DNA of 64,000 bases, taken from Paracoccus xiamenensis (GTDB lineage Bacteria > Pseudomonadota > Alphaproteobacteria > Rhodobacterales > Rhodobacteraceae). The position numbers and the translations under genes are program-made. The stretch spans positions 1,054,001-1,118,000 of the forward strand of contig NZ_JAAOHY010000001.1 in assembly GCF_011308835.1 (NCBI RefSeq), written 5' to 3'. This document shows positions 29,631 to 35,022 of this stretch, piece by piece. Below the pieces are notes generated by a model. The model was not told where the DNA came from. It searched no databases and was given only the letters and a program-made list of their open reading frames with translations. Position 1 is the stretch's first letter; the number at the start of each line of letters is the position of its first letter.

Positions 29631-30017
29631 ATGGAGCCATCGGTGAACGTGCTGGGCGGGCCATTGCAGCCCTGCTCGATGGATCCGCTGACCGGCTTCT
29701 ATCGCTATGGTTGCTGCAATACCGGGCCTCAGGATCAGGGCAGCCACACGGTTTGCGTCATCGTCACGGCCGAATTTCTGGCCCTGTCCAAATACCTTGG
29801 CAATGACCTGTCGACGCCACGGCCGGAATTCCGCTTTGCGGGTCTGAAACCCGGTGATCGCTGGTGTTTATGCGCGGCGCGCTTTCTGCAGGCGGCGCAG
29901 GAATTCGCGGCCCCCAACGTGGTTCTGGAAGCGACCCATGCCGGTGCCACCCGCATCATCCCACTCGAACTGTTGCGCGCCCACGCCGTCAATTCCGGAG
30001 AGACGCCGCGCCGCTGA
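29631..30017 (+). CDS. DUF2237 family protein
   Basis: A 128-residue protein of unknown function. Start ATG 29631 has AAGGAG seven bases before it. The family signature PLTGFYRYGCCNTGPQD, followed by GSHTVCVIVTAEFL and GDRWCLCAARF, is unmistakable; three cysteines (CC, C) recur and could bind metal. A 235-base gap without a gene separates it from pth. It converges on the LuxR-type gene with only five bases between stops. Confidence 0.9.
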   Translation: MEPSVNVLGGPLQPCSMDPLTGFYRYGCCNTGPQDQGSHTVCVIVTAEFLALSKYLGNDLSTPRPEFRFAGLKPGDRWCLCAARFLQAAQEFAAPNVVLEATHAGATRIIPLELLRAHAVNSGETPRR

Positions 30018-30022
30018 TCGGC

Positions 30023-30598
30023 TCAAGCCCCGCAACTCGGTCTGGCGGCGGTCGGGACGGCTGCGGGATCGAACAGATCTTCGATGAACAGGCTTAGCAG
30101 TTGGTGGCGATTGCCCACCCCGGCCTTGCGATAGACCGCCGCCGCCTGCGCCTTGATCGTCCCCTCGGATGTTCCCCGCAGCGCAGCGATTTCCGCCACG
30201 GACATGCCCTTGATCGAAAACAGCGCGACATCGCGTTCGGCCGGGGACAGTGCCCAATCGGTGAAGCGCTGATCGATCAGGTCCATGAAGGCGGATTTGG
30301 CGCGTGCCAGCTTTTCCTGCGCCTCGCGCCCTGCGCGCAGAGAAAGCGCCAGCATCCGCCCGCCAAGACCGATGCCGGCGATCAAGCCGACCGCCGCGCC
30401 GATATCAAGATATTCGGTATATTCCCAGGCAAGCGGTTCGTAATAAATGCCGAAAACCGAGGCGACCATGTCGCGTATCAGATAGATTGCACATATCGTC
30501 TGCAGCGCCAAGATGGCGACCAGCGGCGCCTGACGCAGAAACTGACCGCCCTGCCGAACAGCTGCCGTCTGCCCATCACTGAACGGGGCGTCAGTCAT
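30023..30598 (-). CDS. Membrane-anchored LuxR-type HTH regulator
   Basis: Start ATG 30598 overlaps the end of the upstream Asp-rich gene (ATGACTGA), giving 191 residues; the longer in-frame extension is antisense-like low complexity. Two hydrophobic helices (about residues 25 to 48 and 68 to 90) come first, then a charged linker, then a LuxR/GerE DNA-binding domain: LSPAERDVALFSIKG, AEIAALRGTSEGTIK, VYRKAGVGNRHQLL. There is no receiver or autoinducer domain, so it is likely a membrane-tethered one-component regulator. Context suggests it senses or controls the two secreted PepSY-like proteins encoded upstream in the same operon. Confidence 0.8.
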   Translation of the reverse strand: MTDAPFSDGQTAAVRQGGQFLRQAPLVAILALQTICAIYLIRDMVASVFGIYYEPLAWEYTEYLDIGAAVGLIAGIGLGGRMLALSLRAGREAQEKLARAKSAFMDLIDQRFTDWALSPAERDVALFSIKGMSVAEIAALRGTSEGTIKAQAAAVYRKAGVGNRHQLLSLFIEDLFDPAAVPTAARPSCGA

Positions 30599-31070
30599 CG
30601 TCGTCATCATCGTCGTCGTCGTCGGAATCGCTGTCGTCCGAGCGGCTGTCGGAATCATCATCTGAATCGTCGTCGTCCCGGTCGTCGTCCGACCTGCCGG
30701 AACGATTGCCCGATTTGCTGCCCGAACTGTCGCGGCCCGATGATACCGGTCCTTCGCGGTCACCGTCATCATCGTCGACGACCGCCAGGCCGACGCTTTC
30801 GGTGCCGCCATCGGCATCCCGCACAAGATCCCGCAGCAGCGCGCCGTTACGCGGGTCGATCACGATCTCGCGCTGATGGCCGCGCCCGGTTGCGGTGACG
30901 ACTACCTTCCCCAGCAAGGTCCGATGCACCTCGATCCGGTCATAGCCCTGATCCATCAGCTGTCGGGTGACCTGGCCGGCAACATCCCCCGCGGCCATGG
31001 CTGGCAGCGGCATCGCAAGCGCAATAGAGGCGGCGATCAGAAGGCCCGTTAAACGATGGCGAAAGGTCAC
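30591..31070 (-). CDS. Secreted PepSY-like protein with Asp-rich tail (1)
   Basis: Start GTG 31070 chosen because GAGGA lies eight bases upstream; an ATG nine codons earlier is possible. The 159-residue product has a signal peptide (GLLIAASIALAMPLPAMAA), a PepSY-like beta domain (VTRQLMDQGYDRIEVHRTLL, REIVIDPRNGALLRDL), then a tail from about residue 98 that is almost only Asp, Ser, Arg and Gly, ending in ten consecutive Asp. Such polyanionic tails bind divalent cations in other proteins, but that is inference here. It is followed, with an eight-base overlap, by the membrane LuxR gene and preceded by its paralogue. Confidence 0.75.
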   Translation of the reverse strand: MTFRHRLTGLLIAASIALAMPLPAMAAGDVAGQVTRQLMDQGYDRIEVHRTLLGKVVVTATGRGHQREIVIDPRNGALLRDLVRDADGGTESVGLAVVDDDDGDREGPVSSGRDSSGSKSGNRSGRSDDDRDDDDSDDDSDSRSDDSDSDDDDDDDDDD

Positions 31071-31095
31071 AGAGGTATCCTCACGGCGGCGGAAC

Positions 31096-31116
31096 AAGGG
31101 GCGCGCGCCGCCCCTT
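31096..31116. other. Hairpin between the two Asp-rich genes
   Basis: AAGGGGCG and CGCCCCTT pair around CGCGC. No T-run; could slow transcription or stabilise mRNA between the paralogues. Confidence 0.35.
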
Positions 31117-31195
31117 GACCGTTTTCGGCGCAGTCGCGAGCCAGATCAAGCCCGTTGCCGCGACAAGGCGGCAAAGGATGTGACCCGCGACGCCC

Positions 31196-31756
31196 TCAGT
31201 CATCATCATTGTCGTCGTCGCTATCGTCACTATCGCTGCCGTCATCGCTGTCGCTGTCGTCGCGACTATCGTCCCGGTCGTTGTCGTCCCGGTCATCGTC
31301 CCGACCATCATCGCGATCGCTGGCGTCATCGCCATCATCGTCACGGTCACTCGCATCGTCGCCGTCGTCATCACGGTCGTTGTCATCGTCACGGTCGTCT
31401 GCATCATCGCCGTCGTCATGATCGCCTGCATCGTCATCGTCATCTTCATCGGCATGGCCGCTGTCGTCCAAGTCATCACGATCATCGGCAATATCGGCCG
31501 CACGGCCCCCGCGCACGGTCTCGGTCTCCTGCTCAATCACCGAGCCAGTCCGCGTGTCATAGGTGATCTCGACTTTCTGGTCACCACGCCACGCTTCGAT
31601 GCTAAGTTCATTCTCGCCACGATCGTGGTCCACTTCGATGTCGGTGAAGCCTTGCTCGGCCAGCGATTGCACGGCCGCATCCGTGCTGACCTGTGCCGAA
31701 GCCGCCGAAAGGCCCAGCACCACAAACACACTCGCCAAAGTCAATTCGTTCCGCAT
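31196..31756 (-). CDS. Secreted PepSY-like protein with Asp-rich tail (2)
   Basis: A 186-residue paralogue of the downstream gene. Signal peptide MRNELTLASVFVVLGLSAASA; PepSY-like domain (AVQSLAEQGFTDIEVDHD, QKVEITYDTRTGSVIEQE); then about 95 residues of acidic low-complexity repeats built on DDRDD and DDGDDASDRDD units. The DNA here is a near-perfect triplet-pattern (GTC/ATC on +), which invites repeat-length change. First gene of the three-gene unit with the second Asp-rich protein and the LuxR regulator; 125 bases separate the two paralogues. Confidence 0.75.
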   Translation of the reverse strand: MRNELTLASVFVVLGLSAASAQVSTDAAVQSLAEQGFTDIEVDHDRGENELSIEAWRGDQKVEITYDTRTGSVIEQETETVRGGRAADIADDRDDLDDSGHADEDDDDDAGDHDDGDDADDRDDDNDRDDDGDDASDRDDDGDDASDRDDGRDDDRDDNDRDDSRDDSDSDDGSDSDDSDDDNDDD

Positions 31757-32022
31757 CTTAAGCTCCTATATGGAATGACGCCGTTCCCCGGCATGGACCC
31801 AGCTAAACAAGGCTGCACCCCGGCACCATTCAACCGAGGAGCTATCGGGCCCGTTTAAACAAAGGTTTATGCACAGAAATTGCTAGCACTCTATTGCTTG
31901 CATTTTAAATTCTTCAGGCGGCGTATTCCCTCGCCCGCAGCGTTCTATTTGCCGAATTTCGACCACAGCCGGCCAAGGCCTGCGACGCAGCAGGAAGGGC
32001 AATCGAAGCGGCATCAGAAAAA
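31757..32022. other. Intergenic region, promoter of the Asp-rich operon and 3' side of trpB
   Basis: About 270 bases without a gene. It is more A/T-rich around 31850 to 31920 than its neighbours and must contain the promoter for the gene starting at 31756. No RNA gene or clear operator is recognised. Confidence 0.35.
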
Positions 32023-32052: not shown

Positions 32053-33282
32053 TCAACCGCCGGCGTTGACCTCGACGCCTAGATGCTTGGCGACGGTAAA
32101 GATGTCCTTGTCCCCGCGACCTGACAGGTTGACCACCATCAAGTGATCCTTCGGCAGGGCCGGCGCGATCTTGGTAACGTGGGCAAGCGCATGGCTGGGT
32201 TCCAGCGCCGGGATGATGCCTTCTGTCCGGCACAGAAGCTGGAAAGCCTCAAGCGCCTCCTTGTCGGTGACATAGACATATTCGGCGCGCCCCTGATCGT
32301 GCAGCCAGGCGTGTTCCGGGCCGATGCCGGGGTAATCGAGCCCCGCGCTGATCGAATGCCCGTCAAGGATCTGTCCGTCCTCATCCTGCAGAAGATAGGT
32401 GCGATTGCCATGCAGCACGCCCGGACGGCCGCCGGTCAGGGATGCGCAATGTTCCATCCGTTCATCGACACCGTGGCCGCCGGCCTCGACCCCGATGATG
32501 CGAACGTCGGGGTCGTCGATGAAGGGGTGGAACAACCCCATCGCGTTCGACCCGCCACCGATGCAGGCCACGACGCTGTCAGGCAGCCGGCCCTCGGCGG
32601 CCACCATCTGCGCCTTTGTCTCGCGTCCGATGATCGCCTGAAAATCGCGCACCATGGCCGGATAGGGATGCGGCCCCGCAACGGTGCCGATGCAATAGAA
32701 GGTGTCGCGGACATTGGTCACCCAGTCGCGCATGGCATCGTTCATCGCATCCTTCAGCGTCCCCTTGCCCGAGGTGACCGACACCACCTCGGCCCCCAGC
32801 AAGCGCATCCGAAAGACGTTCGGCGCCTGCCGTTCGACATCGGTGGCGCCCATGTAGACGATGCATTTCAGCCCGAAACGCGCGCAGACAGTGGCGGTGG
32901 CAACACCGTGCTGCCCTGCCCCGGTTTCCGCGATGATGCGGGTCTTGCCCATGCGCCGCGCCAGCAGGATCTGGCCCAGCACGTTGTTGATCTTGTGGCT
33001 GCCGGTATGGTTCAGTTCTTCGCGCTTCAGAAAGATCTTCGCGCCGCCCAGTTCCTCGGTCAGGCGGGGGGCATGGTAAAGCGGGCTCGGCCGGCCGACA
33101 TAATGCGCCCAGAGATCCTCCATCTCTGCCTCGAAGGCCGGGTCTTTCTTGGCGCGGTCATATTCCTGCTGCAGATCGAGGATCAGCGGCATCAGCGTCT
33201 CGCTGACGAAACGGCCGCCGAAGATGCCGAAGCGACCCTGGTCGTCCGGGCCCTGGCTGAGGGAATTGATGCGGTCGTCCAT
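32053..33282 (-). CDS. trpB: Tryptophan synthase beta chain
   Basis: PLP enzyme joining indole and serine into tryptophan. Start ATG 33282 has ACAGGAG upstream and gives 409 residues; a 23-codon upstream extension is ignored. The PLP lysine motif [12 protein letters not shown] and the phosphate loop [10 protein letters not shown] are present, with the C-terminal NLSGRGDKD. trpA and trpF are not adjacent here. It is the last core gene before the accessory island. Confidence 0.97.
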
Positions 33283-33396
33283 GTCACGCTCCTGTCGGTT
33301 CAACGTCCTGCGGGCTGGTGCTGTCGTAGCGAAGCGAGGGGGCCGCGGCAAGTCGGGCTTGCAGGCGCCCGCGCCACAGGTTACGCGAGGGCCGTC

Positions 33397-33787: not shown

Positions 33788-33843
33788 TGATCCTCCCCCC
33801 GTGAAGTGTTCCGCCGTTATAATTGGGAAACGGAGGATCAGAA

Positions 33844-34125
33844 ATGGCGAACAAGCGACCGAAGCCGGAAGAGATTGTGTCGAAGTTGCGGCAGGTTGAG
33901 GTTCTGATGGGGCAAGGGATGTCCCGTCTGGACGCGATCAGGAAGATCGGGTTTGTTGAACAGACCTATTACCGCTGGCGCAAGCAGTATGGTGGCATGG
34001 GTGTAGATCAGTTGAAGGAACTGAAGCGGTTGCAAACGGCTGCGACGCGCGGTCTCGGATCTGACGCTGGACAAACTCATTTTGACCGAGGCGGCCCGGG
34101 GAGTTTGAAGCGGTTCACGTCGTGA
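33844..34125 (+). pseudogene. IS3-family OrfA, frameshifted
   Basis: The first 63 codons read as a normal OrfA (RPKPEEIVSKLRQVEVL, RKIGFVEQTYYRWRKQYGG, LKELKRLQ). After LQ the expected KENE residues are missing. The family-like continuation (RLRRAVSDLTLDKLILTEAA) is found in another frame ending TGA at 34108. This fits a deletion of about 11 bases. As it stands the frame runs on to a foreign tail ending at 34125. Confidence 0.7.
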
Positions 34126-34248
34126 TGAACGATCCAGTGGATCGTTCAAGCGCACAAACGGGCGGAGCCCCTGAGCCCCGCTCGCTGCCGGGCCTGCATC
34201 GATCATGTTCGCGGTGAGCTGGGCATTTCCGAACGCCGGGCATGTCGT

Positions 34249-35022
34249 GTGCTGCGCCAGCATCGCTCGACCCAGCGTAAGCTGCCGCAGGGCCGGGCTG
34301 ACGAAGACCGGCTGGTCGCCGATATGATCGAGCTGGCGCGCCAATATGGCCGCTATGGTTATCGCAGGATTGCGGCCCTGTTGCGCGATGCAGGTTGGCA
34401 GGTGAACGACAAGCGTGTTGAGCGCTTATGGCGGCGTGAGGGGCTGAAAGTACCAATGAAACAACCGAAGAAGGGACGGCTCTGGCTGAACGACGGATCC
34501 TGCGTCCGGCTGCGACCGGAATACCGCGACCATGTCTGGTCCTATGATTTTGTCCATTGCCGAACCGATGACGGCAAGGCCTTTCGGACGCTGAACATCC
34601 TGGATGAGCACAGCCGCGAATGTCTGATGATCCGGGTGAAGCGCAGGCTGAACTCGACCGACGTGATCAATGCGTTGAGCGATCTGTTCATGCTGCGCGG
34701 CGTTCCTGCCTTCATCCGATCCGACAATGGCCCAGAGTTCATCGCCCAAGCCGTTCGAGACTGGATCGCAGCTGTCGGGGCGAAGACGGCCTGCATCGAA
34801 CCGGGCTCACCCTGGGAGAACGGCTACTGCGAGAGCTTCAACGCCCGTTTCAGTGATGAGCTTCTGGACGGCGAGATCTTCTACAGCCTCCGCGCGGCGC
34901 AAATCGTCATCGAAACATGGAGGAAGCACTATAACACCAAGCGACCACACAGCGCTCTGGGCTACCGCCCACCGGCCCCCGAAAGCCTCATCCCGATGGA
35001 TCAGAGGCCGGTCATGCACTAA
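34249..35022 (+). CDS. IS3-family transposase OrfB (DDE domain)
   Basis: Integrase-core transposase. The HTH_21 region (RRIAALLRDAGWQVNDKRVERLWR) precedes the rve domain: VWSYDFVHCRTDDGKAFRTL (first Asp), FIRSDNGPEFIAQAV (second Asp) and GSPWENGYCESFNARFSDEL (Glu). Family-like sequence (SPARCRACIDHVRGELGISE) extends upstream of this GTG to about 34165, so OrfB is normally made by -1 frameshifting from OrfA; with OrfA broken, only internal initiation could express it. Two TGA codons at 34123 to 34128 close the frame upstream. Confidence 0.8.
   Translation: MLRQHRSTQRKLPQGRADEDRLVADMIELARQYGRYGYRRIAALLRDAGWQVNDKRVERLWRREGLKVPMKQPKKGRLWLNDGSCVRLRPEYRDHVWSYDFVHCRTDDGKAFRTLNILDEHSRECLMIRVKRRLNSTDVINALSDLFMLRGVPAFIRSDNGPEFIAQAVRDWIAAVGAKTACIEPGSPWENGYCESFNARFSDELLDGEIFYSLRAAQIVIETWRKHYNTKRPHSALGYRPPAPESLIPMDQRPVMH

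Follow-up and report, generated by a model that had tools for sequence, protein, structure and literature searches.

A conserved Rhodobacteraceae operon that combines exported, Asp-tailed PepSY-like proteins with a membrane-anchored LuxR-type regulator, a possible self-regulating co-component system

In Vibrio cholerae, DbfQ, a PepSY protein, attaches to the sensory domain of the kinase DbfS and thereby changes the activity of the kinase, and PepSY genes are enriched more than 60-fold above chance in the vicinity of two-component genes (PMC12714742). In P. aeruginosa, two PepSY genes precede BqsS, and one of their products is predicted to bind it (PMC12714742); BqsS senses and itself binds Fe2+ (PMC12666569), and the BqsRS/CarRS system answers Ca2+, by the cited title of another paper (PMC12714742, PMC12666569). 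ToxRS and VtrA/VtrC, in which a transmembrane regulator works with a periplasmic partner, are an established kind of system and have been called cocomponent systems (PMC10269533).

Here, we describe an operon found in a 64,000-nucleotide stretch of Paracoccus xiamenensis DNA (the window), which comes from a 3.64-Mb genome and whose nearest related loci belong to Paracoccus. By its open reading frames, the minus strand carries three genes in the order PepSY1, PepSY2, and TM-LuxR. The initial annotation had described two PepSY-like proteins with Asp-rich tails, followed with an eight-base overlap by a LuxR-HTH regulator with two membrane helices; this arrangement is confirmed, and the overlap between PepSY2 and TM-LuxR reads ATGACTGA. 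The features of the locus are as follows.

31196 to 31756, minus strand: PepSY1, PepSY-like protein of 186 residues, predicted to be exported, first gene of the operon (open reading frame; PF13670 at 22.9 bits).
31199 to 31498, minus strand: Asp-rich tail of PepSY1, residues 87-186, with 60 Asp and 9 Arg/Lys in 100 residues.
30591 to 31070, minus strand: PepSY2, PepSY-like protein of 159 residues, predicted to be exported, GTG start at 31070, core motif REIVIDPRNGALLRD.
30594 to 30785, minus strand: Asp-rich tail of PepSY2, residues 96-159, with 30 Asp and 7 Arg/Lys in 64 residues.
30023 to 30598, minus strand: TM-LuxR, 191 residues, with two predicted membrane helices, a long linking helix, and a LuxR/GerE HTH.
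30591 to 30598, minus strand: ATGACTGA, 8 bp shared by the stop of PepSY2 and the start of TM-LuxR.
30338 to 30532, minus strand: the two predicted membrane helices of TM-LuxR (about residues 23-48 and 66-87) and the loop between them (hydropathy; model helices at residues 24-48 and 58-114).
30092 to 30250, minus strand: GerE HTH, residues 117-169, with the recognition helix GTIKAQ containing Lys149.
31856 to 31869, no strand assigned: candidate operator, the dyad TAAAC-N4-GTTTA, which lies 100-113 bp before the start of PepSY1.
32053 to 33351, minus strand: trpB-like gene (PALP domain), the neighbour upstream of the operon.
29631 to 30017, plus strand: DUF2237 gene (Pfam), between pth and the operon.
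33823 to 35022: close to the trpB-like gene, two transposase open reading frames, with the Pfam domains HTH_Tnp_1 in one and HTH_21 and an integrase core in the other.

Beyond these features, the G+C content of the window drops past about 36 kb.

As in DbfQRS, the gene for a small exported PepSY protein immediately precedes, within one operon, that for a two-helix membrane signalling protein. However, DbfS is a histidine kinase whose sensory domain is periplasmic, and a response regulator accompanies it (PMC12714742), whereas TM-LuxR joins the membrane and DNA-binding parts with almost no periplasmic domain, and its PepSY neighbours carry Asp tails. No histidine kinase or response regulator was found by the PepSY genes, where the neighbours recognised by Pfam are the DUF2237, pth, trpB-like, and transposase genes. 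The PA2659-PA2658-BqsRS/CarRS locus resembles the trio in that two PepSY genes precede a membrane signalling pair, but that system, which answers Fe2+, is a two-component one, and the excerpted text does not mention acidic tails (PMC12714742, PMC12666569). ToxRS, TcpPH, and VtrA/VtrC share with the trio a membrane-anchored DNA-binding protein whose periplasmic partner is encoded alongside, but differ in having other DNA-binding and periplasmic domains and lipocalin-like partners (PMC10269533). The trait of the cocomponent systems, an extracytoplasmic partner gene adjoining that of the regulator, is found for PepSY2 in all 40 high-scoring loci of the sample described below. In the main text of the survey of transmembrane regulators (PMC10269533), the words LuxR, GerE, and PepSY have no occurrences, and full-text searches of openly licensed papers returned no paper on a PepSY-LuxR trio. 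Because its gene order recurs across genera, the operon exceeds what chance would give; the operon type is real, conserved, and apparently undescribed.

The GerE HTH of TM-LuxR scores 28.0 bits against the curated Pfam cut-off of 23.5. Hydropathy places hydrophobic segments at about residues 20-48 and 66-87; the stretch between them, about residues 49-65, is predicted to form a short loop in the periplasm. In the structural model (mean pLDDT 75), the linking helix is long and the HTH region has four helices. TM-LuxR combines membrane helices and a DNA-binding domain in one protein, its membrane location being predicted. The initial annotation had called it a regulator without a sensor domain; neither an autoinducer-binding nor a receiver domain is among its Pfam matches up to E=1. 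We accordingly rejected assignment as a quorum-sensing LuxR protein, which the two N-terminal membrane helices also contradict, and as a NarL/FixJ response regulator. The closest named NCBIfam is the LIC13292 family (NF047608), matched by 13 of 13 aligned TM-LuxR sequences (best 3.2e-18); TM-LuxR itself lies far under its cut-off (53.9 vs 200 bits), and the C-terminal part alone is matched. A PDB sequence search with TM-LuxR returned no hit at 1e-4.

Both PepSY1 and PepSY2 begin with a hydrophobic segment, on which their predicted export is based. We refer to them as PepSY-like because the window's own copies score under the cut-off of PF13670 (PepSY_2): PepSY1 reaches 22.9 bits, below the curated value of 24.3, and PepSY2 has no PepSY match in Pfam. 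At E<=0.01, PF13670 is matched by 17 of 31 PepSY1 family members and 8 of 40 PepSY2 family members. The two proteins are homologous, as a profile of PepSY2 made without its tail finds PepSY1 in the same genome at 3.4e-6. The AlphaFold model of PepSY2 contains one helix and four strands, with a pLDDT of about 88-93 over residues 31-80; in structure comparison, YpeB (Z 5.6) and YpmB (Z 5.4) rank level with NTF2-like and other folds. Foldseek with this model gave no match at E<=0.001, and a PDB sequence search with PepSY2 gave low-complexity matches only. A twin-arginine-like motif (RRx followed by a hydrophobic residue) lies within the first 22 residues of PepSY2 in 23 of 50 relatives, hinting that PepSY2 may be exported folded in many genera; the motif is absent from the PepSY2 of the window. 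The genome also holds a third, tail-less PepSY-like gene (contig C19:161096-161317, L220; profile 4.3e-8), which adjoins methionine-related genes and has no dyad nearby.

The Asp codons of the tails are mixed (33 GAC and 27 GAT in PepSY1, 20 GAC and 10 GAT in PepSY2), so the tails are not one repeated codon. Tail length and composition differ greatly between genera; some Rhodobacteraceae PepSY2 tails are hardly acidic, and strongly acidic tails persist in most genera sampled. The variation is what would be expected if the tails were functionless repeat expansions drifting in a merely ancestral neighbourhood, a view made highly improbable by the mixed Asp codons, by the strongly acidic tails kept in most sampled genera, and by the finding that, across the compared genomes, PepSY2 and the regulator either co-occur or are both missing. 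Tails from one locus resemble each other in composition more than they resemble tails from other loci (n=33; p 5e-5 by permutation, uncorrected for relatedness and base composition), which fits a joint function and also shared ancestry or base composition. Further PepSY-like genes with Asp/Glu/Thr-rich tails and an additional N-terminal segment lie beside the trio in four Paracoccus loci (L037:4315-5067, L032:891-1490, L033:3096-3665, and L036:5724-6274).

TM-LuxR is present in 237 of 394 Rhodobacteraceae genomes (genus representatives, as a rule one per genus). Gene neighbourhoods were compared in 40 loci, of which 20 ranked highest and 20 were spaced evenly through the listed, high-scoring matches, with some loci on very short contigs replaced or skipped; being drawn from high-scoring regulators, this sample favours the trio type. 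Within it, the gene immediately upstream of the regulator is of the PepSY2 type in every locus (40/40), trpB lies upstream on the same strand in 38, and pth downstream on the opposite strand in 25. A PepSY1-type gene is present in 29 of these loci, and beyond them the first gene of L122 matches the PepSY2 profile. The order PepSY2-regulator also holds in all of the best 30 regulator matches, the window's own included. When the tail-less PepSY2 profile was applied to 20 held-out genomes that carry the regulator and had given no row to the profile, it found a match in 17; in 20 genomes without the regulator, it found none. The conserved-neighbourhood search that had been proposed for this trio thus finds it again in other Paracoccus and in many Rhodobacteraceae genera.

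At the first position of the operon, four loci (L092, L118, L130, and L131) have a gene for a protein with a signal peptide and a long charged tail and no recognisable PepSY domain, the tail in L130 being rich in Arg, His, and Gly and not acidic. An apparent contrast, in which the 10 of 40 loci scored as lacking PepSY1 have less acidic PepSY2 tails (p 1e-4), was set aside as not clean because several such loci have other charged-tail first genes.

Five other trio loci in Paracoccus (L032, L033, L034, L035, and L037, of which L032 and L037 are near-copies) have gene overlaps of 8-14 bp, and a sixth, L036, is partly masked. Among 101 Paracoccus genomes, long matches above 70% identity occur in G000, G006, and G024 only, so that the trio is patchy within the genus; a strain-specific gene set is ruled out at the family level by its conservation there. 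Four loci (L032:2456-3465, L037:5922-7036, L093, and L094) carry a tandem module of a second PepSY2-type gene and a second TM-LuxR, situated between trpB and the acidic trio, in which the tail of the second PepSY2-type protein has little acid. Farther out, at 1e-12, the regulator was found in 17 of 289 genomes at the class level, and at the phylum level in 22 of 299, both draws including some members of the family. Three weak regulator matches lie beyond the Alphaproteobacteria (G871, G961, and G973), and their neighbourhoods (L169-L171) gave no PepSY match.

Lower-scoring regulators, sampled in 20 more genomes, gave 22 distinct loci, of which 14 have a PepSY gene in view and 8 have none in view; in 7 of the 14, a cytochrome b561 gene lies upstream of the regulator. 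The same sister module occurs in Paracoccus itself (L038-L041), where a short non-acidic PepSY gene is followed by a cytochrome b561 gene and then by the regulator, in open reading frames that touch or overlap; in L041, the PepSY domain scores 58.5 bits (PF13670) and the cytochrome b561 81.0 bits. Six loci from the class-level search (L073, L074, L075, L077, L079, and L082) have this order as well, and in L089 and L090, from two related genomes of another family, a PepSY2-type gene has an acidic tail. Because these sister modules keep the same order, PepSY is a recurring neighbour of the regulator family. Asp tails belong mainly to the Rhodobacteraceae branch; given the non-acidic sister modules and the hardly acidic tails of some PepSY2 proteins, we regard the PepSY-regulator pair as the core and the Asp tail as an elaboration. 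Conservation of the regulator without the acidic proteins, which the initial annotation had held to count against its proposal, is therefore found in part: it is seen in the sister cytochrome modules and in the 8 of 22 loci without PepSY, whereas the high-scoring loci keep PepSY2 throughout.

The sister modules raise the question of a redox or iron circuit, in which an ancestral PepSY-cytochrome b561-TM-LuxR module, sensing electron flow in the periplasm or iron, would have given rise to the trio, which would still report iron or redox state. Such modules are present in Paracoccus and other Alphaproteobacteria, a gene for a VIT-family (iron/manganese-type) transporter directly follows the operon in L041 (L041:3599-4303), and the Fe2+ sensor BqsS of P. 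aeruginosa has two PepSY genes next to its own (PMC12714742, PMC12666569). However, the trio itself is without a cytochrome gene, and the tree of the regulators, being midpoint-rooted, does not fix the direction of descent. We judge this circuit to be quite unlikely.

Upstream of the operon, the perfect dyad TAAAC-N4-GTTTA recurs in 31 of 38 trpB-to-operon gaps in addition to the window, and dinucleotide shuffles match it in 0-1 of 100 per gap; the 7 of 38 loci without a perfect dyad in this gap count against autoregulation. All five of the other Paracoccus trio loci with readable upstream DNA also have it. The 3.64-Mb genome contains one perfect copy (6 in the reversed control) and 13 one-mismatch sites, fewer than the 29 of the reversed control, and a wide regulon was rejected on the latter count. 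Across 392 family genomes, the perfect dyad is present in 171 of 236 with the regulator and in 55 of 156 without it (Fisher p 3e-13, uncorrected for relatedness); since the dyad is not rare by itself, its location weighs more than its presence. We consider autoregulation of the operon by TM-LuxR likely on these sequence grounds, and the earlier suggestion that the acidic proteins are the main output of the regulator gains support from this candidate operator, unique in the genome. In many upstream regions, the dyad is followed at fairly even intervals by another half-site and then a third site (TAAACC...GGTCAATGG); these repeats, picked out by eye and weakly visible in the consensus, are perhaps an operator array.

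In seven loci (L038, L040, L041, L144, L145, L172, and L174), the dyad TAAGC-N4-GCTTA is found instead. Most of these are PepSY-cytochrome b561-regulator modules; L174 is outside any PepSY module, and L172 has the cytochrome with no PepSY found. The recognition helix varies with the dyad, with Lys149 in 40 of 40 regulators with TAAAC and Arg149 in 7 of 7 with TAAGC; in 29 of 76 regulators, neither dyad occurs in perfect form. All seven TAAGC rows fall into one 12-row branch of the midpoint-rooted tree (support 98/98), and we therefore treat the Lys/Arg switch as roughly a single evolutionary contrast and not as a series of independent events. Three further loci with a perfect dyad in the lower-scoring sample (L178, L190, and L184) obey the same rule. 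L178, although a cytochrome module, combines Lys with TAAAC, so the base there follows the residue and not the module type.

Taken as a mechanism, TM-LuxR would bind TAAAC-N4-GTTTA as a dimer through its LuxR HTH, a step well supported by sequence, and on binding this dyad would have the operon as its own, perhaps its only strong, target. Since the regulator has no sensor domain, PepSY2, whose gene overlaps that of the regulator, may present the signal; the periplasmic part of TM-LuxR, too small for much sensing by itself, and the constant exported PepSY neighbour make PepSY2 the proposed partner. By analogy with DbfQ, it would do so by binding the loop and the membrane helices, and such PepSY2-gated signalling through TM-LuxR is plausible. 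PepSY1 could be a second modulator or a product. With less assurance, the disordered Asp tails may bind Ca2+, Mg2+, or Fe and may render the PepSY-regulator pair sensitive to cations or to outer-membrane state. The regulatory loop would then set the quantity of acidic, cation-binding protein in the envelope. We give a probability of roughly 0.5 to the reading of the operon as a PepSY-LuxR co-component system that regulates itself. Against this reading stand the 7 gaps lacking a perfect dyad, the 29 of 76 regulators with neither dyad in perfect form, a genome-wide dyad count no higher than that of the reversed control, the 55 dyad-bearing genomes that lack the regulator, the concentration of the Lys/Arg switch mainly in one clade, the 8 of 22 lower-scoring loci with no PepSY gene in view, the non-acidic PepSY2 tails of some genera, the below-cut-off PepSY scores of the window's own proteins, and the patchy occurrence in Paracoccus. 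Its more specific form, in which a PepSY-gated one-component regulator uses poly-Asp PepSY as a cation- or envelope-sensing subunit and has its own operon as the single strong target, closing a feedback circuit that fixes how much acidic, polymer-like protein the envelope contains, is put forward tentatively, as a possibility a little short of even odds.

The same operator evidence would also be accommodated by a circuit in which TM-LuxR senses the membrane or another partner and the acidic PepSY proteins are pure effectors that give no feedback, serving as a cation buffer or as mineral or surface proteins. The dyad makes the operon the prime target in such a circuit, and the first genes of L092, L118, and L131, which keep the signal peptide and charged tail without a recognisable PepSY domain, are what one would expect were the tail the relevant product; the greater likeness of tails within loci than between them (n=33, p 5e-5) also favours this circuit. 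However, a short PepSY protein accompanies the regulator family even without acid tails, and all 40 high-scoring loci contain PepSY2, which indicates that the regulator's partner is the PepSY domain and not the tail. A purely effector role is thus rather unlikely in our estimate. The constant PepSY neighbour could also act as a shield, PepSY2 being a peptidase inhibitor that guards TM-LuxR from regulated cleavage, as TcpH probably does for TcpP. PepSY domains were first proposed as peptidase inhibitors, and partners of transmembrane regulators can work by blocking proteolysis (PMC10269533), but the operon contains no protease gene, and we regard this role as very unlikely. The self-regulating co-component system, with PepSY2 as the signal-presenting partner, remains our preferred reading.

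The regulator family is widespread in the Rhodobacteraceae, which include many marine and soil bacteria. The trio looks like an undescribed way to sense or buffer envelope conditions. It is also a natural setting in which to ask what role secreted poly-Asp tails play. The model can be tested directly, since the candidate operator is unique in the genome and Lys149 or Arg149 correlates with the type of dyad. If true, it would mean that PepSY control reaches beyond two-component systems to a one-protein regulator, and PepSY-gated regulators of this kind would form a widespread signalling class of the Rhodobacteraceae, the one-protein counterpart of DbfQRS.
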